This document shows, in pieces, positions 21,040 through 34,887 of a DNA stretch of 64,000 nucleotides. The position numbers were made by a program, and so were the translations under genes. Where the stretch lies: positions 62,001 to 126,000 of the forward strand of contig JAIMAL010000004.1 of NCBI GenBank assembly GCA_023511995.1, read 5' to 3'. The notes beneath the pieces were generated by a model that saw only the letters and a list, made by a program, of their open reading frames with translations, searched no databases and was not told the DNA's origin. This DNA comes from Burkholderiales bacterium. Lineage in GTDB: Bacteria; Pseudomonadota; Gammaproteobacteria; Burkholderiales; Thiobacteraceae. The first letter of the stretch is position 1. Each line of letters begins with the position of its first letter.

Positions 21040-22502
21040 GGCCGCTGAACAAAATCCTTGCGCTGCTGCTCATCGCTGCGGGCCTGCTGGCCCTGGGCGC
21101 CCTCGCGGGCGGCTGGTGGGTGCGTCACACCGGCGAACGCAAGCCGGCCACACAGGGCGCTGGCCCACAGCCCGGGGGCGAACGCCGGGTGCTGTACTGG
21201 TACGACCCGATGTTCCCCCAACATCATTTTGACCGGCCAGGCAAATCGCCTTTCATGGACATGGAGCTGGTACCGAAATATGCCGACGAAGGGGAAGGGT
21301 CCGTCGGCGTGAAGATCGACCCGTCCCTCACCCAGAATCTGGGGATACGTCTGGCGACAGTGAAACGTCTTCCGCTGGCGAGCGAAATTCACGCGGCCGG
21401 GCTCGTCGGATTCAATGAACGTGCCGTGGCGGTGGTGCAAACCCGGGTCGCCGGTTTCGTCGAACGTGTCTGGCCGCTCGCCCCGGGGGATGTGGTGCGC
21501 GCGGGACAGCCGCTGGCGGAGCTCTTGGTGCCGGAATGGGCGGCCGCCCAACATGAGTGGCTTGCCATCCGTTCCAGCGGGGATGCGGGTCTTGCCGCCG
21601 CCGCACGCGAGCGCCTGCGCCTGTTGGGCATGCCGGAGCGCATGATTGAGACGCTGGAGCAGAGCGGCGTGGTCCAGTCCCGATACACGGTCACCGCGCC
21701 CATCGACGGCGTGCTCCAGGCGCTCGACGTGCGCACCGGCATGACGCTGATGGCAGGGCAGACACTGGCGCGTATCAATGGACTGGCCACGGTGTGGGTG
21801 GAGGCGGCCGTGCCGGAGGCCGTGGGGGCTTCTGTCGCGGTGGGCAATCGGGTGCAGGTGACGGTGGCCGGCGTGGCAGTCCCCCTCGAAGGGCACATCA
21901 CCCACATCGTGCCGGTGCTGAACGAAGCCACACGCACTTTGCGGGTGCGCATCGAACTGCCGAACCGGGACGGGCGTTTGCGGCCTGGCATGTCGGCCCG
22001 GGTCACCCTCCGCAACGAGTCGGCGCAGACGGCACCCGCCGTTCCCACCGAGGCCATCATCCGTACGGGCCAACGCACGCTGGTGATGCGGGCGGAAGAG
22101 GATGGACGTTACACGCCGGTGGAGGTGTCGGTCGGTGAGGAAATCGGCGACTGGACGGTCATCACCGCCGGCCTTGAGGAAGGTCAGAGAATTGTGGCCA
22201 GTGGCCAGTTCCTGATCGACTCGGAAGCCAAGTTGAGCGGTGTGATCGCGCAACCGGCCAGGGGAGAGGCGGCCTTGCATGCGGCAGAAGCCACGATCGA
22301 TGACATTGCCGGCGGGGAAATCACGCTCACCCATGGGCCCTTCCAGACTCTTGGCATGCCGGGCATGACCATGAGCTTCGCCCTGGCGCGGCCGGATGTC
22401 GCGCGCGGGTTTGCGCGAGGCGATCGGGTCAGGGTGTTCGTGCGGCAAACAGCCGATGGCCTGGTGGTCGAGCGGCTGGAGAAAATGGGAGGCAAACCAT
22501 GA
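21036..22502 (+). CDS. cusB: CusB-like periplasmic adaptor with C-terminal CusF domain
   Basis: Membrane-fusion protein of a Cu/Ag RND pump, 488 residues. N-terminal anchor (about 8-28), a heavy-metal-binding segment [20 protein letters not shown]...[12 protein letters not shown], then barrel-sandwich and beta-barrel domains (about 100-400). The last 80 residues form a CusF-like OB domain ([22 protein letters not shown]) with Met in place of the Cu(I)-stacking Trp. This fusion is known from SilB/CusB homologues. Start ATG 21036 overlaps cusC, and the end overlaps cusA (ATGA at 22499). Confidence 0.93.
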
Positions 22503-25500
22503 TTGCGCGCCTGATCCGCTGGTCGGTCGCCAATCGCTTCCTGGTGCTATTAGGCACGCTGTTTCTTGCCGCGGCTGGCCTCTGGTCGGTCATAACGACG
22601 CCGGTGGATGCGCTGCCGGACCTGTCGGATGTGCAGGTCATCATCCGCACCAGCTATCCGGGACAGGCGCCACAGATCGTCGAGAACCAGGTCACTTATC
22701 CGCTCAGCGCCACCATGCTCTCGGTGCCGGGCGCCAAGACGGTGCGCGGCTTCTCCTTTTTTGGCGACAGCTTCGTCTATGTGCTGTTCGAGGACGGCAC
22801 CGATCTCTACTGGGCGCGGTCGCGGGTGCTGGAGTACCTCAATCAAATCCAGGCACGACTGCCGGCCACGGCGCGCACCAGTCTGGGCCCGGATGCCACC
22901 GGCGTCGGTTGGATCTACGAGTACGCGGTGGTGGACAGGACCGGTCGGCATGATCTGTCGCAACTGCGGGCGCTGCAGGACTGGTTTCTGAAATTCGAAT
23001 TGAAGACCCTGCCCAACGTGGCGGAGGTGGCCACGGTGGGCGGTATGGTCAGGCAGTATCAGGTCGTGCTCGATCCGGTGAAACTGGCCGCGCTTGGCAT
23101 CACCCAGGCCGAGGTGAAGGACGCCATCGGCAAGGCGAATCAGGAGAGTGGCGGATCCGTCTTGACCCTCGGCGAAGCCGAACTGATGGTACGCGCCAGC
23201 GGGTACCTGAAATCGGCGGCCGACTTCCGGGCCATTCCGCTCAAGCTGGTGAACGGTGTGCCCGTTGTCCTCGGCGACGTGGCGACCATTCAGCTGGGGC
23301 CGGAGATGCGGCGTGGCATCGCCGAGCTCAATGGCGAGGGCGAAACCGTCGGCGGGGTGGTCATTCTGCGCAGCGGCAAGAACGCCCGCGAAACCCTTGC
23401 GGCGGTCCATGCGAAGCTGGAACAGCTCAAGGCCAGCCTGCCCCAGGGCGTGGAGATCGTCACCACCTACGACCGCAGCAAGCTGATCGACCGCGCGGTG
23501 GAAAACCTCACCCATAAACTCATCGAAGAGTTCATCGTCGTCGCACTGGTATGCGCCTTGTTCCTGTGGCATGTGCGGTCGTCGCTGGTGGCCATCATCT
23601 CGTTGCCGCTGGGCGTGTTGACCGCCTTCCTCGTCATGCGCTACCAGGGGGTGAACGCGAACATCATGTCGCTGGGCGGCATTGCGATCGCCATCGGGGC
23701 GATGGTGGATGCGGCCATCGTCATGATCGAGAACGCCCACAAGAAAATCGAGGCCTGGCAGCATGCGCATCCCGGCGAGACGCTCAAGGGGGAGGCGCAC
23801 TGGGAAGTGATGACCGAAGCGGCGGTGGAAGTGGGGCCCGCGCTGTTCTTCTCGCTGCTGGTCATCACCATCTCGTTCGTGCCGGTGTTCATGCTGGAAG
23901 CGCAGGAGGGCCGCCTGTTCGGCCCGCTCGCGTTCACCAAGACCTATTCCATGGCCGCGGCGGCCGGTCTGTCGGTGACGCTGATCCCCGTGCTGATGGG
24001 CTACTGGATACGTGGCAGGATCCCCGCAGAGGCGAACAACCCCATCAATCGCTGGCTCATCGGCGCCTACCGGCCACTGCTGGAGGCGGTGCTGGCGCGG
24101 CCGAAGACGACCCTCACGGCGGCGGGCCTGCTGTTTCTCACGGCAGCCTGGCCGATCAGCCGTCTGGGCGGCGAATTTCTGCCGCCGCTGGACGAAGGCG
24201 ATCTGCTCTACATGCCGTCGGCGCTGCCCGGGCTGTCGGCACAGAAGGCCGCCGAGTTGCTGCAGCAGACGGACCGCCTGATCAAGACGGTGCCCGAGGT
24301 GGCCAGCGTGTTCGGCAAGGCCGGCCGCGCCGAAACCGCCACCGACCCGGCGCCGCTGGAGATGTTCGAGACCACCATCCAGTTCAAGCCCCGTGAACAG
24401 TGGCGGCCCGGGATGACGCCGGAGAAACTCGTGGAGGAACTGGATCGGGTCGTCAGGGTGCCGGGGCTCGCCAATATCTGGATTCCGCCCATCCGCAACC
24501 GCATCGACATGCTGGCCACCGGGATCAAGAGTCCCATCGGCGTCAAGATTTCCGGCGGCGACCTGGCCGCCATCGACCGCATCGCCCAGCAAGTGGAGAC
24601 CGTCGCCAGGAAGGTGCCGGGCGTCTCGTCCGCTCTGGCCGAACGGCTCACCGGCGGTCGCTATGTCGATATCGATATCGATCGCGCTGCGGCCGCCCGC
24701 TATGGACTCAATATCGCCGATGTGCAAGCGGTCGTGTCCGGCCTCGTCGGCGGCGAAAACATCGGCGAGACGGTGGAAGGCCGGGCACGCTACCCCATCA
24801 ACCTGCGTTACCCGCGCGAATGGCGCGACACTGTCGGGCGGCTGACACAATTACCCATCGTCACGCCCCTCGGCAGCCAGATCACCTTAGGGATGGTGGC
24901 CCGCATCACGGTGGTGGACGGCCCGCCCATGCTGAAAAGCGAAAACGCGCGCCCGTCGGGCTGGGTGTATGTGGATGTGCGTGGTCGCGACCTGGCTTCG
25001 GTGGTGGCGGATCTGCGCGCCGCGGTCGCGCGCGAGGTCAAGCTCGAACCCGGCATGAGCCTGGCCTACTCGGGGCAGTTCGAGTTTTTGCAGCGCGCCA
25101 ATGCCCGTCTGAAGGTCGTCGTGCCGGCCACGCTGCTGATTATCTTCGTGCTCCTGTATCTCACCTTCCGGCGCCTTGACGAAGCCCTGCTCATCATGGC
25201 CACGCTGCCCTTTGCGCTCACCGGAGGAGTGTGGTTCCTGTACCTGCTCGGCTACAACCTCTCGGTCGCCACCGGTGTCGGTTTCATCGCGCTCGCAGGG
25301 GTTGCTGCCGAGTTCGGCGTGATCATGCTGCTCTACCTCAAACACGCTTGGCAGAAGCGCGTCGAAGCCGGCCTGCAAACCGAAACCGCACTCCTGGAGG
25401 CCATCCGCGAAGGCGCCGTGCTGCGGGTGCGTCCGAAGGCCATGACGGTGGCCGTGATCATCGCCGGCCTGCTGCCGATCCTGGTGGACAGCGGCACCGG

Positions 25501-25684
25501 CAGCGAGATCATGAGTCGCATCGCCGCGCCCATGGTGGGCGGGATGGTGACTGCGCCGCTGATGTCGCTGCTGGTGATTCCTGCGGCGTATCAGCTGATG
25601 CGGCGGCGCGCTTCGCGGGGAACGGCGGACGGCTCGCCCGTCTTTACGCGTTGTGCGATGTGCGCCAGGGCCTGTTCCACCTGA
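22499..25684 (+). CDS. cusA: CusA-like heavy-metal RND efflux pump
   Basis: Inner-membrane Cu(I)/Ag(I) exporter, 1061 residues, with 12 predicted membrane helices and the HME-RND hallmarks: [18 protein letters not shown] near the N-terminus, the TM4 proton-relay segment [17 protein letters not shown] (about 400) and [21 protein letters not shown] in the last third. The normal end of such proteins comes just after [13 protein letters not shown]; here some 24 further residues ([23 protein letters not shown]) are read through the antisense strand of the cphA 3' end before a stop at 25684. The tail looks acquired by a junction event. Confidence 0.93.
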
Positions 25685-28203
25685 TCCACCAGGATCAGAC
25701 AAAGGTCACCCGGCTCAAGACGGTCGAGGGCGGTATCGATGGCGGCGAACTCGCCACGGATTTCGCTGATGTTGTCGGTGCGCCCCGTTCTGGCCAGCCC
25801 CTCGCGCAGGAGGGCGAAGGTTTCCCCCGGTTGGCGGCCGCGCAGGCAGGCATCCTCAAAGAGGAGGATGTCGTCGAAGGCGCGGCCGATCACTTCTGCC
25901 TGCTGCCGGATGTCCTCGTCACGCCGGTCACCGGCCACGCTGATGACGATGCTGCGCCGGCGTGCGGGCATGGCCATCACCGCCTGCACCAGCGCCTGCA
26001 GGGCATCGGCGTTGTGGCCGTAGTCGGCAATGACGGTGGCACCGCGGTGGTCAAAGATATTGAAACGGCCGGGAACGGTCGCCGCATCGGAAGTGAAGCT
26101 GGCAAGCCCGCGCCGGATGACCTCCCAGGAAAGACCAAGGGCCCACGCGGCGCCGATGGCGGCCATGGCGTTTTCCACCTGGAAGCCGATGCGGCCGTTG
26201 TGCGTTAAGGGGATCCCGGCAAGGGGGAGGCGCAGTTCGAAATCGCCCTCGACGACGACGATATCCTCCCCTTCGCGGAACACCAGGCGTTTGCCCTGCG
26301 CCCGTTGCGCAGCGGCGACAGGGTGGTGCATGTCCTGGGCGAAAAAGGTGACGCTGCCGGGGCAGTGGCTGGCCATCGCGGCCACACGGGGATCGCAGGC
26401 ATTGAGCACCGCCACCCCGTCCGGGGAGACGTTCTGCACCACTACCCGTTTGACCACGGCCAGCTCATCGGCGTTGGTGATGAAGTTCATGCCCAGATGG
26501 TCTCCGCTGCCCACGTTGGTGACCACGGCCACCTTGCAGCGATCGAATCCCAGTCCTTCCCGTAAAAGCCCCCCACGCGCGGTCTCCAGCACGGCTGCAT
26601 CCACGTCGGGATGCATCAGCACATTGCGCGCGCTCTTGGGCCCGCTGCAGTCCCCGCTGTCGATCTGCTGGCCGTTGACGAACACGCCATCGGTGAGGGT
26701 CATGCCCACGCGGAAGCCGGCCGTGGCGAGCAGATGGGCGATGAGGCGGGTGGTGGTGGTTTTGCCATTGGTGCCGGTGACCGCCACCAAGGGGATGCGC
26801 CCGTCTTCACCCGGCGGGAACATCCAGTTGATGATGGCTTCGCCCACCGGCCGGGGTTTGCCGAAGGAGGGGGCAAGGTGCATGCGCAGCCCCGGCGCGG
26901 CATTGACCTCGACGATGCCGCCGCCCTGTTCCTCCAGCGGTTTCATCACCGTCTCGCAGACCACGTCCACCCCGCAGATGTCGAGCCCCACCATCTGTGC
27001 CGCCTCCACCGCGCGGGCGGCCACTTCCGGATGCACATCGTCGGTGACATCGGTGGCGGTGCCGCCGGTGGAAAGGTTGGCATTGTTGCGCAGCAGTACC
27101 CGACGGCCCTTTTCCGGCACGTCGTCCAATGTCAGGCCCTGCAGGGCGAGCTGGGCGAAGGCGATGTCATCCAGCCGGATTTTGGTGAGCAGGGTGGCGT
27201 GTCCTTCGCCGCGTCGCGGGTCGGCATTCACCAAAGCCACGAGCTCACGCACGGTGTGCACGCCATCGCCGATGACATGGGGTGGTTCCCGGCGCGCGGC
27301 GGCCACCAGGTGATGGCCCACCACCAGCAGCCGGTGGTCGTGACCGGGAATGAAGCGCTCCACCATCACTTCATCGCCATATTGGGCCGCCGCGGCAAAG
27401 GCGCGCAGAAATTGTTCGCGGTCGGTGACATTGACCGTGACGCCTTTGCCCTGATTGCCATCCCGTGGCTTGACCACCACCGGCAGCCCGATGGACAGCG
27501 CCACCTGCCAGCCGGTCTCGGCATCCCGCACCGGCCGGCCGGCGGGCACAGGCACCCCCGCCGCTTCCAGGAGCATCTTGGTGAGGTCCTTGTCCTTGGC
27601 GATGTCTTCGGCGATGGCGCTCGACCAGTCCGTCTCTGCGGCCTGGATGCGCCGTTGTTTCGATCCCCAGCCAAATTGCACAAGACTGCCTTCGGTCAGG
27701 CGCCGGTAGGGGATGCCGCGGGCCACCGCGGCCTGGACGATGGCGCCGGTGGACGGGCCCAGGCGCACGTCTTCGTCCAGCTCCCGCAGTCTGTGGAGCG
27801 CCGCAGCCAGGTCGAAGGGTGTATCGGCGTGGGCGGCGCGCAGAAGTGTTTCGGCGAGTTCCAGGGCCAGGCGCCCCACCCCCTCCTCGGTATATTCGAA
27901 CACCACCTGGTAGCGGCCGGCCTCCGGCGTGACCGCGGTGTGGCAGAAGCTCACCGGACAGCCGGCCTGGGCCTGCAGGGCCAGGGCGGCGAAGCCCAGG
28001 GCGTGGGCGAGGGAGACTTCGCCTTCGAAGCCGATGGGATGCATGGGGCCGATGTCGGGGAAGCGTGCCCGCAGGCGGCTTTCGAAACCGGGCAGGTGGT
28101 TGATGTTCCGTTCCTGCGGCGGGCAGAACACCAGGGCTTCGATGGAGGTGTGCCGGCTCCACACATTGGGCCCACGCAGGGCGCGAACGCGCTCGATTTC
28201 CAT
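25591..28203 (-). CDS. cphA: cyanophycin synthetase CphA
   Basis: Makes multi-L-arginyl-poly-L-aspartate, a carbon/nitrogen store. The 870-residue protein has an N-terminal cyanophycin-specific region (about 1-160), an ATP-grasp domain that adds Asp (about 220-480; [14 protein letters not shown]) and a Mur-ligase-like domain that adds Arg, with intact P-loop [12 protein letters not shown] (about 474-485) and a Mur C-terminal domain ([19 protein letters not shown], about 735). The last 30 codons overlap cusA on the other strand by 94 bases; the final [15 protein letters not shown] may be junction-derived. CphA' lies 35 bases upstream, so the two are cotranscribed. Confidence 0.95.
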
Positions 28204-28238
28204 GTCTGTCTCCTTGATCAGAACCGCCGGCGGTGGCT

Positions 28239-30419
28239 TCAGCCGGCAAGGCCCAGTTCCGCAGGCGGGCAGGTTTCCACGGCGGTGCGGATGAGGTCTT
28301 CGGGCAATCCCAGGGCAAGTCCGGCGGCGATGGCGGCGAGCACGCTTTCCACGCCCTCTCTGCCTGCCGCCGCGAGCCAGCCGATGGCTTCCAGGCGGGT
28401 GAAGGGACGCGCCTCGAGACCCTGGGCGCGCAGGATTTCGCCGTCCTGCGTGAAGACCGCGCTGCCCCCCTTCGCGCGATGGCGGGAAAGCGCCGCCACG
28501 CTGCCATCCCGGGCGTAGAGCATCACCGCTCCGTCACACAGTTCCGCCATTTCCACGGCGAGGGGGTCGCAGGCATTGAGCACCGCCACGCCCTCAGGCA
28601 GCACCACGTCCACCTGGGTGCGCAGCACGGTGTAGAGCTGTTCCGCATTGTCGATGTAGTACCGCCCGAGGCGCTCCCAGCCGCTCACGTCGGTGACGAT
28701 ACCCACCTGGCAGCGGTCGTAGGGCAGACCCTCGTCGAGGATCATTTCCGCCGGGGTTTCGAAGACGGCGGCATCGGCCATGCGGTTCATGAGGAGCTGA
28801 TGACCGGCAATCCAGCGGCAGCCATCGCGCACGGTGACGTGGCGGCGATCGAAGAAAACGCCATCCCGGCAGGCCAGGCCGGTGCGCTTGCCGGCAAGTT
28901 GGAGGAAGAGGGTGACCAGGCGGGCGATCAAGGTGGTGCCGCGCCGGCCGGTGATGCCGACGATGGGGATGCGGCCGGCGGCGCCGCTTTCCGGAAAGAG
29001 ATGATCGACGATGGCGCGGCCCACGGGGCGCGGCTGGCCCTCCGCCGGTTTGAGGTGCATGAGCAGACCGGGTCCGGCGTTGACCTCGACGATGGCACCG
29101 CCCTGTTCCGCAAGCGGGCGGGAGATGTCTTCCGCCACCAGGTCGATGCCGGCTACATCCAGGCCCACGATGCGGGCGGCAAGGGAAGCCGCTGCCGCCA
29201 CCTCGGGATGAACCCGGTCGGTGACGTCGAAGGCCACGTTGCCATTGCGCTGGATGAGGATGCGGGTGCCGGCCGGCGGCACGTCGTCACCGCGATAACC
29301 CTGGCGCGCAAGCTCCAGCTCCACGGCCGGGTCCTCCTCGATGCGGATCACGTTCAAGGGGTAATCCTCCGTGGTGCCGCGCCGGGGATCGGTGTTGATC
29401 TGGCTGTCGATGAGCTGGACGATGGTGGAGCGGCCATCGCCCGTGACCCAGGCGCTGCTGCCTTTGGCGGCGGCCACCACCTTGCCGCCCACCACCAGCA
29501 GACGGTGCTCATCACCGGGGACGAAGCGTTCCACGATGACCTCGCTGCCTTCCCGCTCCGCCAGGCGATAGGCCGCTTCTATTTCCTCGCGGGTCTTGAG
29601 GTCGAGGGAGACGCCGCGGCCATGATTGGCGTCCGTGGGTTTCACCGCCACCGGCAGCCCGATATCCTGCGCCGCTTCCCAGGCTTCTTCTGGGCTTTTC
29701 ACCACCCGACCCTGGGGCACCGGTACGCCGCAGGCGGCAAGCAGCCGCTTGGTGAGGTCCTTGTCGCAGGCGATGGATTCGGCGATGGCCGGGGTGCGGT
29801 CGGTCTCCGCCGTCCAGATGCGGCGGCTTTGTGCACCGTATCCCAGTTGCACCAAGTTGCCGTCGGTGAGCCGGATGTGGGGAATGCCCCGCTCGGTGGC
29901 CGCTTCCACGATGGAGGCGGTGGAGGGTCCGAGGCAAAGCCGGTCGGCCAGGTCCCGCAGCCTTTCCACCGTGCCCGCCACATCGAAGGGGGTGTCCTCG
30001 ATGGCGGCCATGACCAGATCACGGCCGGCCATGAGGCAGGCCCGACCCACCTCCTCGTGGCGGGTGCGCACCACCACCTTGTACACCCCCCGCACCGGCG
30101 TGCTGCGCGCCTTGCCGAAGCCCACCTTCATGCCGGCCAGGTTCATGAGTTCGATGGTGACGTGTTCCAGGATATGGGCGGGCCAGGTGCCTTCCTTCAG
30201 CCGTTTGAGGAAGCCTCCCCGTTCGCCGACGCCACAGCGGTGTTCCACGAGCCCCGGCAGCCAGGCGGTGAGCCGCTCATAGAAGCCGGGCAGGGTGTTG
30301 GAGGGGCAATCCTCCAGATCGCCGATATCCACCCAGGCCTCGAGCACGGGGCGGTAGGTCCAGAGATTGGGGCCGCGCAGGTAGACCACCCGCAGGAATT
30401 CGATGGAACGTTTGCTCAT
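28239..30419 (-). CDS. second cyanophycin synthetase, CphA' (CphA2-like)
   Basis: A 726-residue CphA paralogue. The N-terminal and ATP-grasp domains are intact (VKPTDANHGRG, about 265). The Mur-like part is degenerate: the P-loop reads TGRRGTTLIA where GTNGKTTT is expected, so the catalytic Lys is gone, and the protein stops where the Mur C-terminal domain would begin. It is therefore expected to have one working ATP site, like cyanobacterial CphA2, which repolymerises beta-Asp-Arg dipeptide. This is inference, not proof. Start ATG 30419 (MSKRSIEFLRVV) is chosen over 30668 because it aligns with CphA ([11 protein letters not shown]). Confidence 0.92.
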   Translation of the reverse strand: MSKRSIEFLRVVYLRGPNLWTYRPVLEAWVDIGDLEDCPSNTLPGFYERLTAWLPGLVEHRCGVGERGGFLKRLKEGTWPAHILEHVTIELMNLAGMKVGFGKARSTPVRGVYKVVVRTRHEEVGRACLMAGRDLVMAAIEDTPFDVAGTVERLRDLADRLCLGPSTASIVEAATERGIPHIRLTDGNLVQLGYGAQSRRIWTAETDRTPAIAESIACDKDLTKRLLAACGVPVPQGRVVKSPEEAWEAAQDIGLPVAVKPTDANHGRGVSLDLKTREEIEAAYRLAEREGSEVIVERFVPGDEHRLLVVGGKVVAAAKGSSAWVTGDGRSTIVQLIDSQINTDPRRGTTEDYPLNVIRIEEDPAVELELARQGYRGDDVPPAGTRILIQRNGNVAFDVTDRVHPEVAAAASLAARIVGLDVAGIDLVAEDISRPLAEQGGAIVEVNAGPGLLMHLKPAEGQPRPVGRAIVDHLFPESGAAGRIPIVGITGRRGTTLIARLVTLFLQLAGKRTGLACRDGVFFDRRHVTVRDGCRWIAGHQLLMNRMADAAVFETPAEMILDEGLPYDRCQVGIVTDVSGWERLGRYYIDNAEQLYTVLRTQVDVVLPEGVAVLNACDPLAVEMAELCDGAVMLYARDGSVAALSRHRAKGGSAVFTQDGEILRAQGLEARPFTRLEAIGWLAAAGREGVESVLAAIAAGLALGLPEDLIRTAVETCPPAELGLAG

Positions 30420-30661
30420 GACTGGCGGGGGCGGGAGAACGCGCGGTTCCCGGCTATCACACAGACGAAGAAGGAGAGAGGCACTGGGATATAATGCGGC
30501 GCTGGGCCGTTCCTGCGAAAATTTGTGAAGCATAACCGAAAACCGCCTTTCAAGGGTCATATCGCGGGTCTTGCCGGAACACGCCGTGGCTGGGAGCAGA
30601 TCGTCAACCGTCGGCGCTTCCGCCCGTTTTTCCTCCCCATAACGCATCACCTGCGGTTCCG
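30420..30661. other. divergent regulatory region of the cyanophycin locus
   Basis: 242 bases between divergent cphA' and the ABC exporter gene. A TATAAT (30490-30495) is present on the plus strand but no convincing -35 accompanies it. Nothing else is legible. Confidence 0.35.
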
Positions 30662-32917
30662 ATGACAAAGCCTGCTACCCCTTCCATTCCCCTCGAGCCC
30701 GGGGAAACGCTGCTTGCCACCCTCGAGCTGGATCTGGATACGGGGCTTCGTTTCGCCCACGGGCTCCTTGCCGTGACCGACCACAGGCTCCTTGCCTTGA
30801 CGCCGGACAAGGAGGGCTGGCAGGCCTGGCCCCTCGGCCCCGGTTTGCGGCTGGAGCAGAGCGATCACGCGGGGGTGGGCACGCTGGAGCTCATGGACGG
30901 GCAGGGGCGGCTTGCGGTCTGGCATTACACCCTGGGCCATCATCTGGCGGGCAGCCGCTTGGTGCGCGAGTTCCAGCGGGCTGTGGCAGCGCAGGCCGAG
31001 GGCAGGCCCATCGCGCCGGAGACCGAGGTCCTCTGTCCCACCTGTCGGGCTCCGCTGCCGCCGGAGGCGGAGGAGTGTCCCCTCTGTGCGCGGGAGACGG
31101 AGACGCCACCTTCTACCTGGGTGCTGTTGCGCCTCTGGCGGTTTGCCCGTCCCTACCGGGGCCGGCTCATCGCCGCCTTCCTCCTCACCCTCGCCTCCAC
31201 GGCGGCGGGGCTGGTGCCGCCTTATCTCACCATGCCGCTGATGGACGACGTGCTCATTCCCTACCAGAACGGGCAGCCCATCGACACCCGGCTGGTCCTC
31301 CTGCTACTCGGGGGGCTCGCCCTGGCGGCGGTGGTGGCCTGGGGGTTGGGCTGGGCGCGCACTTATCTGCTGGCTTTGGTGTCGGAGCGCATCGGCATGG
31401 ACCTGCGCACCGCGACCTATGAACATCTTCTGCGCCTCTCCCTGGAATATTTCGGCAGCAAACGCACCGGCGATCTCATGGCCCGCATCGGTTCCGAGAC
31501 GGACCGCATCAATGTTTTCCTCTCGCTCCATCTCCTCGATTTCGCCACCGACGTCCTCATGATCCTGATGACGGCGGTGATCCTCTTTTCCATCAATCCC
31601 TGGCTGGCGTTGGTGACGCTTCTGCCCCTGCCCTTCATCGCCTGGATGATCCACCAGGTGCGCGACCGGCTGCGCACCGGTTTCGAGAAGATCGACCGCG
31701 TCTGGTCCCAGGTGACCAGCGTGCTGGCCGACACCATTCCCGGCATCCGGGTGGTGAAGGCATTTGCCCAGGAGGAGCGGGAAGCCGAGCGCTTCCGCGA
31801 GGCGAACCGCCACAACCTGGCGGTGAACGACAAGCTCAACCGCACCTGGTCCCTCTTTTCCCCGACAGTGACGCTGCTCACCGAGGTGGGCTTGCTCGTG
31901 GTGTGGGCCTTCGGCATCTGGCAGGTGTCGCAGAACCAGATCACGGTGGGGGTGCTCACCGCCTTCCTCGCCTATATCGGTCGTTTTTACACGCGGCTCG
32001 ATTCCATGAGCCGCATCGTCTCCGTGACGCAGAAGGCGGCGGCGGGGGCCAAACGCATCTTTGACATCCTGGACCACGTCTCCACCGTGCCGGAGCCGGC
32101 GCGGCCGGTGCACCTTCCGCAGGTGAAGGGGCGCATTGAACTGAGCCACGTGGGCTTCCGTTACGGCAACCGTGCCGTGCTCCACGACATCAATCTCGTC
32201 ATCGAGCCGGGGGAGATGATCGGTCTGGTGGGACACTCCGGATCCGGCAAGAGCACCCTGGTGAATCTCATCTGCCGTTTCTACGATGTCACCGAAGGCA
32301 GCATCAGGGTCGATGGGGTGGACATCCGCCAGTTGCCCATTGCCGAATACCGGCGTCACATCGGTCTGGTGTTGCAGGAGCCCTTCCTCTTTTTTGGCAC
32401 CATCGCCGAAAACATCGCCTACGGCAAACCCGGCGCATCGCGGCAGGAGATCGTCGCCGCCGCGCGTGCAGCCCACGCCCATGAGTTCATCCTGCGGCTG
32501 CCCCAGGCCTATGACTCGCTGGTGGGCGAGCGGGGCCACGGTCTGTCGGGGGGCGAGCGTCAGCGTATCTCCATTGCCCGCGCCCTGCTCATCGATCCCC
32601 GCATCCTCATTCTCGACGAGGCGACGAGCTCCGTGGACACGGAAACCGAAAAGGAAATCCAGAAGGCGCTCGACAATCTGGTGGCGGGGCGCACCACCAT
32701 CGCCATCGCCCATCGTCTTTCCACCCTGCGCCGCGCCGACCGCCTGGTGGTGATGGATCGTGGCCGGATCGTGGAGATCGGCAGCCACGACGAGTTGATG
32801 GCCAGGCAGGGGCACTATTGGCGCCTCTACCAGGCGCAGGCGCGCAACGTGGATAAGGAGCAGGAAGAGATGGAAGCGGAGCTGCCCCCGGTGGTGAAGG
32901 CGGCAGGGGTGCCATGA
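30662..32917 (+). CDS. cyanophycin-locus ABC exporter with N-terminal zinc ribbon
   Basis: A 751-residue fused ABC half-transporter. Residues about 1-110 look like a PH-type beta domain (LATLELDLDTGLRF, LLAVTDHRLLAL). Residues about 124-142 form a zinc ribbon with CPTC and CPLC pairs. A six-helix exporter domain follows (about 160-450), then an ATPase domain with Walker A GHSGSGKST (about 522), LSGGE signature (about 628) and Walker B ILILDEA (about 648). It lies divergent from cphA and overlaps the DUF1854 gene (ATGA). The gene pair recurs with proteobacterial cyanophycin genes. The substrate is unknown. Confidence 0.88.
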   Translation: MTKPATPSIPLEPGETLLATLELDLDTGLRFAHGLLAVTDHRLLALTPDKEGWQAWPLGPGLRLEQSDHAGVGTLELMDGQGRLAVWHYTLGHHLAGSRLVREFQRAVAAQAEGRPIAPETEVLCPTCRAPLPPEAEECPLCARETETPPSTWVLLRLWRFARPYRGRLIAAFLLTLASTAAGLVPPYLTMPLMDDVLIPYQNGQPIDTRLVLLLLGGLALAAVVAWGLGWARTYLLALVSERIGMDLRTATYEHLLRLSLEYFGSKRTGDLMARIGSETDRINVFLSLHLLDFATDVLMILMTAVILFSINPWLALVTLLPLPFIAWMIHQVRDRLRTGFEKIDRVWSQVTSVLADTIPGIRVVKAFAQEEREAERFREANRHNLAVNDKLNRTWSLFSPTVTLLTEVGLLVVWAFGIWQVSQNQITVGVLTAFLAYIGRFYTRLDSMSRIVSVTQKAAAGAKRIFDILDHVSTVPEPARPVHLPQVKGRIELSHVGFRYGNRAVLHDINLVIEPGEMIGLVGHSGSGKSTLVNLICRFYDVTEGSIRVDGVDIRQLPIAEYRRHIGLVLQEPFLFFGTIAENIAYGKPGASRQEIVAAARAAHAHEFILRLPQAYDSLVGERGHGLSGGERQRISIARALLIDPRILILDEATSSVDTETEKEIQKALDNLVAGRTTIAIAHRLSTLRRADRLVVMDRGRIVEIGSHDELMARQGHYWRLYQAQARNVDKEQEEMEAELPPVVKAAGVP

Positions 32918-33381
32918 GTCTGGCGTTCACCTTGAGCCGCAACGCCTTCGGCCGCCTGGTGCTGGAGCTGCCCGATGGCAGCCGCCACGAAGGGGTCGTG
33001 CCGGTGCGTGCCTTCCCCATCACCGCACCCCGGGAAGGCGTGGCCCTGGTGGGGCCGGATGGTCATGAATGTCTTTGGATTCCCGATCTTGACGCGCTGG
33101 ATGAGGCGCGGCGCTCGCTGATCGAGGCGGCCCTCGCCGGCCGGGAATTCATGCCGGAAATCCGGCGCATTCTGCGGGTGTCCAGCTACGCCACCCCCAG
33201 CACCTGGGAGGTGGAAACAGACCGGGGGCGCACCCGCTTCGTGCTCAAGGGCGAGGAGGATATCCGGCCCCTGGGCGCCCACAGTCTCCTCATCGCCGAC
33301 AGTCACGGCATCCAGTTTTTCATCCGCGACGTCATGGGGCTGGACCGCACCAGCCGGCGCATCCTCGACCGTTTCCTCTGA
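32914..33381 (+). CDS. DUF1854 protein of the cyanophycin locus
   Basis: A 155-residue soluble protein with no signal peptide. Motifs: VVPVRAFPITAPREGVALV near the N-terminus, EFMPEIRRILRVSSYATPSTWEVETDRG in the middle and GIQFFIRDVMGLDRTSRRILDRFL at the end, which I recognise as DUF1854. It overlaps the ABC exporter by four bases, so the two products are probably made in step and may interact. The biochemical role is unknown. Confidence 0.85.
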   Translation: MSLAFTLSRNAFGRLVLELPDGSRHEGVVPVRAFPITAPREGVALVGPDGHECLWIPDLDALDEARRSLIEAALAGREFMPEIRRILRVSSYATPSTWEVETDRGRTRFVLKGEEDIRPLGAHSLLIADSHGIQFFIRDVMGLDRTSRRILDRFL

Positions 33382-33405
33382 GCGGGTGCCTGCAGGGGAC
33401 CTCAG

Positions 33406-33858
33406 TCAGTGGCCGTGGTGGGCGCTAGCGCCCAGCGCGCGCGCCTTGGCCTTGACTTCGATTTCCTCGCGGCCGCCGTCCTTCCGCTCCACCACCAGGG
33501 TGAGGGGCACCGTTTCGTCCGCCTTGATCTGACGCGTAAGTCCCATGAGCATGATGTGGTAGCCGCTGGGGGCAAGCGACACGGGCTTGCCGGCCGGCAG
33601 ATCGAGGCCGGGGATGGCGCGCATCTTCATCACGCCGCCTTCCATCTTCATTTCGTGGATTTCCACCGTCTGCGCCACGGGCGAGCGCGCGGCAATCAGC
33701 CGCGCATCCGTTTTCGCGGTGAGTTCCATGAAGGCCCCGGTGGCGGTCTGCGCCGGCACCGTGGCCCTGATCCAGGGGTTTTTCACTTCGACCTCGGCCA
33801 ATGCCGCACCGGCGACAAGGAGCGTCAGCATACCTGCGATGAGACTGGAACGTTTCAC
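33406..33858 (-). CDS. PCu(A)C copper chaperone
   Basis: A 150-residue periplasmic protein: signal peptide to AALAEVEV (about residue 21) and a PCu(A)C domain. The Cu(I) site is visible as HEMKMEGGVMKM (about 70-81) and HIMLMGL (about 100-106). A His-rich C-terminus (ASAHHGH) follows. Such chaperones deliver copper to cytochrome oxidase or buffer it. It is convergent with the DUF1854 gene and stands apart from the main copper island. Confidence 0.92.
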   Translation of the reverse strand: MKRSSLIAGMLTLLVAGAALAEVEVKNPWIRATVPAQTATGAFMELTAKTDARLIAARSPVAQTVEIHEMKMEGGVMKMRAIPGLDLPAGKPVSLAPSGYHIMLMGLTRQIKADETVPLTLVVERKDGGREEIEVKAKARALGASAHHGH

Positions 33859-34050
33859 GTTTTCCTCCGTGGAGTGGGGTGAATACGGCGTAAATCGGGA
33901 TGTTCAGGTTGGCCGCGCCGTTACGCTGGGCTGAAAGCGGTCAACTTGGGTTTTCGGGATTATGATGCCACAGCCGTTTTCTGGGGGCTGCGACAAATCG
34001 TCGCAGGCGGCGTTGGCTTCACCTTGCGGAGAGCACCGCCCCCGTGGTAG

Positions 34051-34074
34051 CGTTATATCCAGATTGGTATAACG
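34051..34074 (+). promoter_or_regulatory. ModE-like operator upstream of modABC
   Basis: CGTTATA (34051-34057) and TATAACG (34068-34074) form a perfect 7-bp inverted repeat over a 10-base spacer. It resembles the E. coli ModE box, which is also built of CGTTATA-type arms, and sits 37 bases before modA. This indicates molybdate-dependent repression. No modE gene is in the window. Confidence 0.72.
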
Positions 34075-34110
34075 AGGTGGGCCGTGGCGCTGGCAGGAAA
34101 GGGAGGCGGG

Positions 34111-34887
34111 ATGCGGGGTGCCTTCGGGCGGTTCGTGGTTTTCATCCTGATTGCGCTTTTTGCCTTGCCCAGCCCGGCGGCGCCGCTCACCGTCGCCGCG
34201 GCGGCGGATCTCAAGTTCGCCCTGGAAGACATCACGGCCGCCTTTCGCCGTCTCCATCCGGAGGCGCAGGTGGACGTGGTTTACGGCTCCTCGGGCAAAC
34301 TGCAGACCCAGATCCGTAACGGGGCTCCCTTCGATCTTTTTTTCTCCGCCGACATCGACTATGCCCGCGCGCTGGTGGAGGCCGGGCTTGCATCAGGCCC
34401 GGTGCGGCCCTATGGGCGGGGACGCATCGTTCTCTGGAGCACGCGCCTTGATGTGAGGCGCCTTTCGGTTGCCGACCTCAGCCAGCCCGGCATCCACCGC
34501 ATTGCGCTGGCCAATCCCCGACATGCGCCCTATGGCAGGCGGGCGGAGGAGGCCCTGCGCGCGGCCGGCGTGTGGTCGCGCCTTGCGCCGAAGCTGCTTT
34601 TCGCGGAAAACATCGCGCAGGCGGCCCAGTTCGTGCAGACCGGAGGCGCCGAGGTGGGCATCGTCGCCCTCTCCCTGGTGAAAAGCCCGCAGCTTGCGCA
34701 GGAAGGTGCCTTCGCGTTGATCCCGGAAGAATGGCATGCGCCCCTGGAGCAGGGCTTCGTCATCACCCGCCGCGGCATGGCGAACCCCCTCGCCCGCGCC
34801 TTTGCCGACTTCATGGAGACGGCCACGGCGCGGAACATACTGGAACGTTACGGTTTCCTGCCCCCCGGCGGGGTGAAGGCTGACTAG
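34111..34887 (+). CDS. modA: molybdate ABC transporter substrate-binding protein ModA
   Basis: Periplasmic molybdate/tungstate-binding protein, 258 residues. Signal peptide [23 protein letters not shown]; mature start with the family motif [16 protein letters not shown]; the oxyanion segment [13 protein letters not shown] and [15 protein letters not shown] are typical of ModA. ATG 34111 is preferred (AGGGAGG upstream, compact signal peptide); GTG 34084 would add nine residues. It lies behind a ModE-like palindrome and is one base from modB. Confidence 0.92.

Follow-up and report, generated by a model that had tools for sequence, protein, structure and literature searches.

Reciprocal active-site losses in paired betaproteobacterial cyanophycin synthetases suggest an enzyme divided between two paralogues

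The N domain of the cyanophycin synthetase SuCphA1 carries a zinc-peptidase-like site, Cx19HxxEH, which cuts cyanophycin into primers; the site is described as present in most CphA1 enzymes and missing from CphA2 (PMC9262961). According to the same source, the SuCphA1 N domain is slow and yields mainly tetramers rather than dipeptides, the T. morbirosei CphA1, which lacks the N site, is primer-dependent, and a CphA1 without the site becomes primer-independent when the SuCphA1 N domain is supplied in trans, either alone or within G-/M- mutants. Heterodimers of N-G+M+ and N+G-M- protomers are active as well, and without primer they are somewhat weaker than enzymes whose protomers each combine every site (PMC9262961). 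In the ATP-grasp (G) domain, Arg323, the large loop and Arg458 bind or house the incoming aspartate (PMC9427784, the source from which the roles of the G-domain residues discussed below were assigned), and the substitution H267A is reported to inactivate the G domain of SuCphA1. Adjacent synthetase genes are also in print: pairs from Sideroxydans and Gallionella were annotated as CphA1/CphA2 (PMC5178258), an adjacent pair was presented as two copies (PMC5670224), and a 'Group 1' cluster comprises two cphA genes and an ABC transporter gene with no cphB (PMC10687191).

Here we analyzed such a pair in a 64,000-nucleotide stretch from a Burkholderiales bacterium of the Thiobacteraceae (GCA_023511995.1, contig JAIMAL010000004.1, positions 62,001 to 126,000; hereafter the window). 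The gene cphA' (28239..30419, minus strand), whose name was coined in a first-pass annotation of this DNA, encodes a 726-residue CphA1 paralogue consisting of an N domain, a G domain and a truncated Mur core. A 35-nt gap containing AAGGAG before the CphA ATG (28204..28238, minus strand) separates its stop codon from cphA (25591..28203, minus strand), which encodes an 870-residue synthetase; the two genes are closely linked on the same strand and probably cotranscribed. On the other side, a divergent intergenic region (30420..30661, no strand assigned) leads to the gene of a putative exporter, the cyanophycin metabolism-associated ABC transporter (30662..32917, plus strand), in which Walker A, LSGG and Walker B are present, and to that of the cyanophycin metabolism-associated DUF1854 protein (32914..33381, plus strand). 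Both match their NCBIfam models well above the cut-off (NF052233, 1424.7 bits against 880; NF052234, 235.5 against 150). A scan of 25300-33600 for sigma-70-like promoters gave one match against 0.7 expected, and none between cphA' and the ABC gene.

For comparison we assembled 80 named loci (the best 80 of 544 relatives) and 60 loci from genomes of the same order in addition to the window; among those best 80 of 544, Thiobacillus, Sulfuriferula and Sulfuricella account for most of the closest named relatives of CphA', which suggests that the host is a betaproteobacterium as the class was formerly defined. The raw set contained 141 CphA' and 137 usable CphA sequences, four loci (L107, L146, L178 and L194) having CphA' and no usable CphA. 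Reduction at 95% identity left 101 CphA' (15 full-length and 86 truncated) and 98 CphA sequences, with the window in both; it also removed duplicates where both sources cover one genome, as with L137 and L145; the raw locus counts still include them. Loci L029-L057, whose flanks cut CphA, were excluded from the aligned table and entered a motif check only, as did L010-L012 and L215-L216. Nineteen single synthetases, 10 of the same order and 9 of the same class, served as controls; L212-L214, which comprise fragments and a single Mur-like protein, were excluded from this group. In all 137 loci (of 140) in which both genes were found, CphA' precedes CphA on one strand. An apparent CphA'-CphA fusion in genome G352, a 1575-residue open frame, was rejected because CphA' ends within it and CphA starts in another frame.

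The first-pass annotation had noted the loss of the Mur-type ATP site in CphA', and our analysis bears this out. At the position of TGTNGKTT in SuCphA1 the protein reads TGRRGTT (28932..28952, minus strand), in which Lys499 is replaced by threonine, and the Asp585-His586 pair of the SuCphA1 M domain is replaced by E582-R583 (28671..28676, minus strand). The claim that CphA' ends before the Mur C-terminal domain also holds: its alignment to CphA1 structures stops at approximately chain residue 721, and that of the neighboring CphA extends to 874-875. In CphA', Pfam detected ATP-grasp and the cyanophycin N domain and no Mur domain, while CphA matched both Mur domains; CphA' does not reach the NCBIfam equivalog TIGR02068 (710 bits, cut-off 850) and passes the subfamily model NF010623 (1030 against 877). 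In the non-redundant set, the P-loop NGKT was kept in 1/86 truncated CphA', 15/15 full-length CphA' and 98/98 CphA, and identical counts were obtained for the DH pair, which indicates that the degeneration is not due to chance. Loss of the Mur site and loss of the C-terminal domain co-occur across the CphA' set; one protein, from L159, is truncated later than the others and has both P-loop and DH intact. The full-length CphA' come from genera including Cupriavidus, Ralstonia, Pandoraea and Achromobacter. A quick tree of 76 CphA', of which only three are full-length and from which L201 was omitted, needs two changes between the full-length and truncated states and is also compatible with a single truncated clade (p-AU 0.83). 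Modelling of the degenerate domain, which had been proposed as a check, gave a confident fold: the AlphaFold model of CphA' has a mean pLDDT of 82.9 and a pTM of 0.68, block means over residues 481-720 range from 82-97, and VIA-align superimposed the Mur part onto S. aureus MurE with 2.2 Å rmsd over 224 residues (Z 25.3). The confident fold of what remains characterizes it as a domain preserved in an inactive state, not as debris; in this genome the Mur domain of CphA' would be folded yet without activity, and it stops short of the lid.

The same annotation had left CphA' with the ATP-grasp site only, which is not correct. The Cx19HxxEH site known from the N domain of CphA1 is complete in this protein (30162..30242, minus strand), with H60, C62, H82, E85 and H86 corresponding to H57, C59, H79, E82 and H83 of SuCphA1, and all eight SuCphA1 residues that mark an inverzincin-like endo-cyanophycinase N domain (H57, C59, F67, R70, H79, E82, H83 and E87) are present as HCFRHEHE. 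In CphA this site is lost, with an alignment gap across His57 and Cys59. At 95% non-redundancy, C59/H79/E82/H83 occur in 101/101 CphA', 0/98 CphA and 18/19 single synthetases, and the motif was found in 34/34 CphA' from 34 further loci, some of which repeat genomes already counted. The N site is the sole site that is never lost in the CphA' examined. Its erosion in CphA is incomplete: Cys59 and His57 are retained in 0 of 98 sequences, His83 in 2, Arg70 in 3 and Glu87 in 6, as against 91/98 for His79 and 65/98 for Glu82. Columns of the N domain beyond the site also differ between CphA and CphA'.

The G domain of CphA' (approximately residues 164-480; 28980..29930, minus strand) is preserved in part. 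Its ATP, magnesium and acyl-phosphate residues are kept (K220, K261, H267, R309, D431, E450 and N452), the ATP residues in 99/101 sequences. The aspartate pocket is lost: Arg323, which contacts the β-carboxylate, is replaced by G320 (29460..29462, minus strand), Ser396 to Gly399 of the large loop are deleted at N394-V395-A396 (ANLSTGGIA to GNVA; 29232..29240, minus strand), and Arg458, which contacts the α-carboxylate, is replaced by L453 (29061..29063, minus strand). All of R323, S396 and R458 are kept in 0/101 CphA', 98/98 CphA and 18/19 single synthetases at 95% non-redundancy; L022 is the one exceptional sequence among the 19 controls. The same pocket loss is seen in full-length CphA' whose Mur site is intact. 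Pocket loss and N-site retention are thus common to the CphA' examined, whereas the loss of the Mur site is a trait of a subset. CphA of the window, which had been described as intact, is so in its aspartate pocket and Mur site, but not in its N site or at position 267, where histidine is replaced by glutamine. His267 is kept in 98/101 CphA', 2/98 CphA and 18/19 single synthetases, with glutamine in 96/98 CphA. Because H267A inactivates the SuCphA1 G domain, a CphA with Gln267 may be impaired when alone. We also considered a reciprocal swap of His267; five loci deviate from histidine in CphA' and glutamine in CphA, both copies having histidine in two and CphA' having arginine beside glutamine in CphA in three, and none is swapped. 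There is accordingly no sign of one His267 being shared by the two proteins.

The site losses and retentions, the gene order and a fixed four-gene module (see below) are established at the level of sequence; the function of each site is predicted by analogy with SuCphA1 and TeCphA1. On this basis we propose, with a probability of roughly 0.6, that reciprocal loss has split a duplicated synthetase in two, with CphA' as the peptidase or primase subunit and CphA as the ligase subunit. One old duplication of cyanophycin synthetase 1 in a betaproteobacterial lineage would have given rise to both proteins, and reciprocal loss would then have divided the sites between them. The N domain of CphA' would cut β-Asp-Arg chains into short primers while its ATP-grasp domain would no longer recognize aspartate; CphA would add aspartate through its G domain and arginine through its M domain without making primers of its own. 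The two proteins would probably work together, perhaps as a hetero-oligomer. The activity of trans N domains and of heterodimers in SuCphA1 makes such a division of labor mechanistically possible, and the CphA-CphA' complex proposed in the first-pass annotation fits the data well; complex formation itself, and cyanophycin as the product, are presumed. The retention of the ATP residues and of His267 suggests that in most lineages the G domain of CphA' does something beyond the role of a pure peptidase. Further observations speak against the split: Gln267 in CphA, the persistence of His79 and Glu82 in many CphA, the N-domain differences beyond the site, and the conservation of the CphA N domain, which almost equals that of CphA' despite its lost site (mean pairwise identity 0.598 vs 0.634). 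The review statement on wild-type R. eutropha cited below counts against it as well.

The reading originally offered for CphA' was that of a CphA2-like polymerase which recycles β-Asp-Arg dipeptides through its ATP-grasp site. The parallel holds in so far as CphA' and CphA2 have both lost the Mur site and the lid (PMC9427784), and the near-universal ATP, magnesium and acyl-phosphate residues together with His267 would suit a polymerase; loss of Arg323, the ligand of the β-carboxylate of free aspartate, would moreover permit a β-amidated acceptor. It does not extend to the N site, which is missing from CphA2 and which recycling does not explain, and a dipeptide would still present the α-carboxylate bound by Arg458, which is lost too. 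A kinship with CphA2 is contradicted by the sequence and fold of CphA', which are nearer to CphA1: the best CphA1 match has an E value of 1.1e-144 as against 2.1e-59 for the best CphA2, Foldseek TMq values are 0.59-0.64 to CphA1 and 0.41-0.44 to CphA2, and a search with the Mur remnant alone, at E up to 10, hit five chains of CphA1 and none of CphA2. Judged indirectly from the match ranges in searches of solved structures, both CphA2 structures match the net length of CphA1 where the loop of CphA' is deleted. That the pocket is also lost in full-length CphA' which retain the Mur site likewise argues against a CphA2-like protein. Recycling beside de novo synthesis finds no support in the genome of the window either, in which there were 0 matches for TIGR02069 (cyanophycinase), PF03575 (Peptidase_S51), PF01112 (IaaA), TIGR01975 (IadA) and PF04952 (AstE/AspA), and thus no known source of β-Asp-Arg. 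We consider this reading quite unlikely.

The conserved ATP residues nevertheless imply that the G domain of CphA' may still ligate something other than aspartate. One candidate is the chain itself: the domain would activate the C-terminus of one oligomer and join it to the N-terminus of another, so that CphA' would both cut and rejoin chains. The residues that activate a carboxylate are kept while Arg323, Arg458 and the pocket loop are lost, as might be expected if the N-terminus of an oligomer has neither carboxylate free. We know of no example of a chain ligase of this kind, and regard it as very unlikely. A natural experiment bears on both proposals. In genome G091, which lies outside the order, CphA' (L027) has 674 residues, and a portion of its G domain that includes the large loop is missing; its G site reads RK-RADT instead of KKHRDEN, so that the ATP residues are destroyed, and its Mur site reads GASDTS with A-T in place of D-H. 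Despite the loss of both ATP sites the N site is intact (HCFRHEHE), the partner CphA has its aspartate pocket and Mur site intact, and the ABC and DUF1854 genes adjoin. This pair, L027/L013, falls outside the counted set. A G domain without its ATP residues is at odds with a CphA2-like polymerase and with a chain ligase alike, and the case as a whole favors the proposed split. In L201 the ATP-grasp site of CphA' is also eroded with the N site kept, in a milder form than in G091.

To place the pair phylogenetically, we computed a G-domain tree by a quick method from 38 pairs, 19 single synthetases and three CphA1 references with GshAB as outgroup, after removal of the trait columns. CphA' forms one clade (SH-aLRT 100) and CphA another (98), and the two are sisters (86, not starred). 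Single synthetases are not sisters of the pair: they fall beside A. baylyi CphA1, beside the cyanobacterial references or in groups of their own; they are therefore a control for the kind of enzyme, not for the lineage. One duplication suffices to explain the tree, so that the counts given above reflect long retention rather than many origins and are not independent events. Another possibility is that CphA' is in decay and persists purely as a structural partner. Its Mur core does erode (mean pairwise identity 0.455, compared with 0.68 in CphA of the same 83 pairs), but its N domain (0.634) and G domain (0.663) are conserved, the catalytic residues of these two domains at 97-100%, and two matches persist in 131/135 genomes of the pair type (counted by hand; the other four are partial or cut). 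We give mere decay very little credence.

The division into two synthetases is inherited together with the two neighboring genes. The order was represented by 399 genomes, of which 131 contain two CphA' matches, 11 a single synthetase, 253 no match and 4 a partial one. Two matches were taken as a pair without a copy-by-copy check, and G443 and G608, whose best match is only of CphA strength, are doubtful, as their CphA' may be partial or absent. The ABC gene was found in 130/131 two-match genomes, 0/11 single-synthetase genomes and 0/253 genomes without a match at E <= 1e-250, a threshold that weaker or cut copies would escape; for the DUF1854 gene the numbers are 129/131, 0/11 and 0/253 (E <= 0.001). 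The ABC gene adjoins cphA' in 136/140 loci, 129 divergent (three of them labelled "other" solely on account of a long CphA' open frame) and 7 in the same direction, and occurs in 0/10 single-synthetase loci. It is unlinked yet retained in G386, where it lies 13 kb away, and in G417, G454 and G476.

Cyanophycinase behaves differently: it exceeds the cut-off in 10/131 two-match genomes versus 11/11 single-synthetase genomes (Fisher p 4e-11, kinship ignored), a contrast that rests on two single-synthetase genera. Similarly, cyanophycinase was reported in 2.8% of 903 beta-proteobacterial CphA1 genomes, a scarcity called unanticipated (PMC10206079). Together with the lack of a match in the genome of the window, these figures would agree with CphA' being the missing betaproteobacterial cyanophycinase, an endo-hydrolase that mobilizes the store beyond primer making; the low cyanophycinase count also weakens the dipeptide-recycling view. 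However, the SuCphA1 N domain is slow and yields mainly tetramers, no IaaA, IadA or AstE/AspA is found in the genome to complete breakdown, and single synthetases retain the N site although cyanophycinase is present. A hydrolase of the store appears rather improbable to us. Alternatively, the four genes could form a pathway for trimming and export instead of a nitrogen store, in which CphA would build β-Asp-Arg chains, the N domain of CphA' would trim them to a set length and the ABC/DUF1854 proteins would export the oligomer. Such a pathway would account for the lack of cyanophycinase and dipeptidases and for an exporter that is co-inherited almost without exception, even in the unlinked cases. 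It would also account for the statement of a review that cyanophycin was not observed in the wild type of R. eutropha, an organism with two homologues (PMC11362209). On the other hand, another review names Bordetella species among cyanophycin-containing organisms (PMC8560796), and the ABC protein is a putative exporter with a presumed substrate. We view an export pathway as unlikely, if worth bearing in mind.

If the synthetase is indeed split between CphA' and CphA, copies annotated as CphA2 would be primer-making subunits and that annotation would be misleading here; heterologous production with one betaproteobacterial gene would fail or lag, and the partner would cure it. The pair would also be a clear case of a multi-site enzyme divided by reciprocal loss, with a series of losses visible from full-length CphA' to one in which both ATP sites are gone. 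Why many Betaproteobacteria hold two synthetases and handle cyanophycin without cyanophycinase can now be addressed.

Within the passages of open-licence PMC literature searched, we found no description of reciprocal loss site by site. Of the known systems, CphA1 (SuCphA1, 7LG5; TeCphA1, 7WAC) resembles CphA' in its N-G-M order, Cx19HxxEH site and G-domain ATP residues, with 37-38% identity in structural alignment; unlike CphA1, CphA' is devoid of the aspartate pocket, the Mur P-loop, the Asp-His pair and the Mur lid, and is accompanied by a paralogue with the opposite losses. CphA2 (7TA5, 8FXH) likewise has neither Mur P-loop nor Mur lid, but CphA' differs from it by keeping the N site, by its proximity to CphA1, by the second synthetase at its side and by a genome with no known dipeptide source. 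The published betaproteobacterial two-synthetase pairs share with our locus the gene pair, the ABC transporter and, according to NCBIfam, the DUF1854 neighbor, and very probably represent the same module; the passages of PMC5178258 and PMC10687191 that deal with them are silent on the active sites of each copy. T. morbirosei CphA1 has lost the N site, as has the paired CphA; it keeps His267 (NHGRG, 7lgn alignment), whereas the paired CphA has glutamine at this position and a partner that bears the N site.

In one of the compared genomes, G091 (loci L027 / L215), degeneration of CphA', the truncated CphA1 paralogue, extends to both ATP-dependent sites, which are destroyed; the site in the N domain is still intact. 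This CphA' adjoins a CphA with an intact pocket and Mur site, together with the ABC and DUF1854 genes.

In the window, the ABC exporter encoded by the module (30662-32917, + strand) carries an additional segment of ∼150 residues ahead of its membrane part. This segment is covered by the NCBIfam model NF052233 ('cyanophycin metabolism-associated ABC transporter') and contains two zinc-ribbon-like CxxC motifs. On one side of the module, cphA (25591-28203, - strand) and an RND efflux open frame (22499-25684, + strand) overlap tail-to-tail by 94 bases (25591-25684). The module is followed by genes for a PCu(A)C copper chaperone and a modA-type molybdate binding protein (together 33406-34887), and neither gene looks like a module member.

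At six loci from single-synthetase genomes (L202, L203, L205, L208, L209 and L211), the single CphA adjoins another open frame that is Mur-ligase-like and 409-459 aa long. Some of these genomes, for example G314 and G470, also encode a cyanophycinase ∼2 kb further along. This arrangement, sometimes including the cyanophycinase, is a distinct cyanophycin cluster within the same order as the pair. Separately, a plasmid of Microvirga ossetica encodes a protein with a CapA family annotation (L139:1779-4793) that bears a CphA1-like N/G region with an altered ATP-grasp loop (33.7% identity to SuCphA1, the reference cyanophycin synthetase 1, over 80% of the query).

The paired CphA is itself altered at SuCphA1 position 267, which is glutamine in 96 of the 98 non-redundant sequences comprising the window protein and its relatives; histidine is retained in 18/19 single synthetases, which served as control. 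In SuCphA1, the H267A mutant has an inactive G (ATP-grasp) domain.
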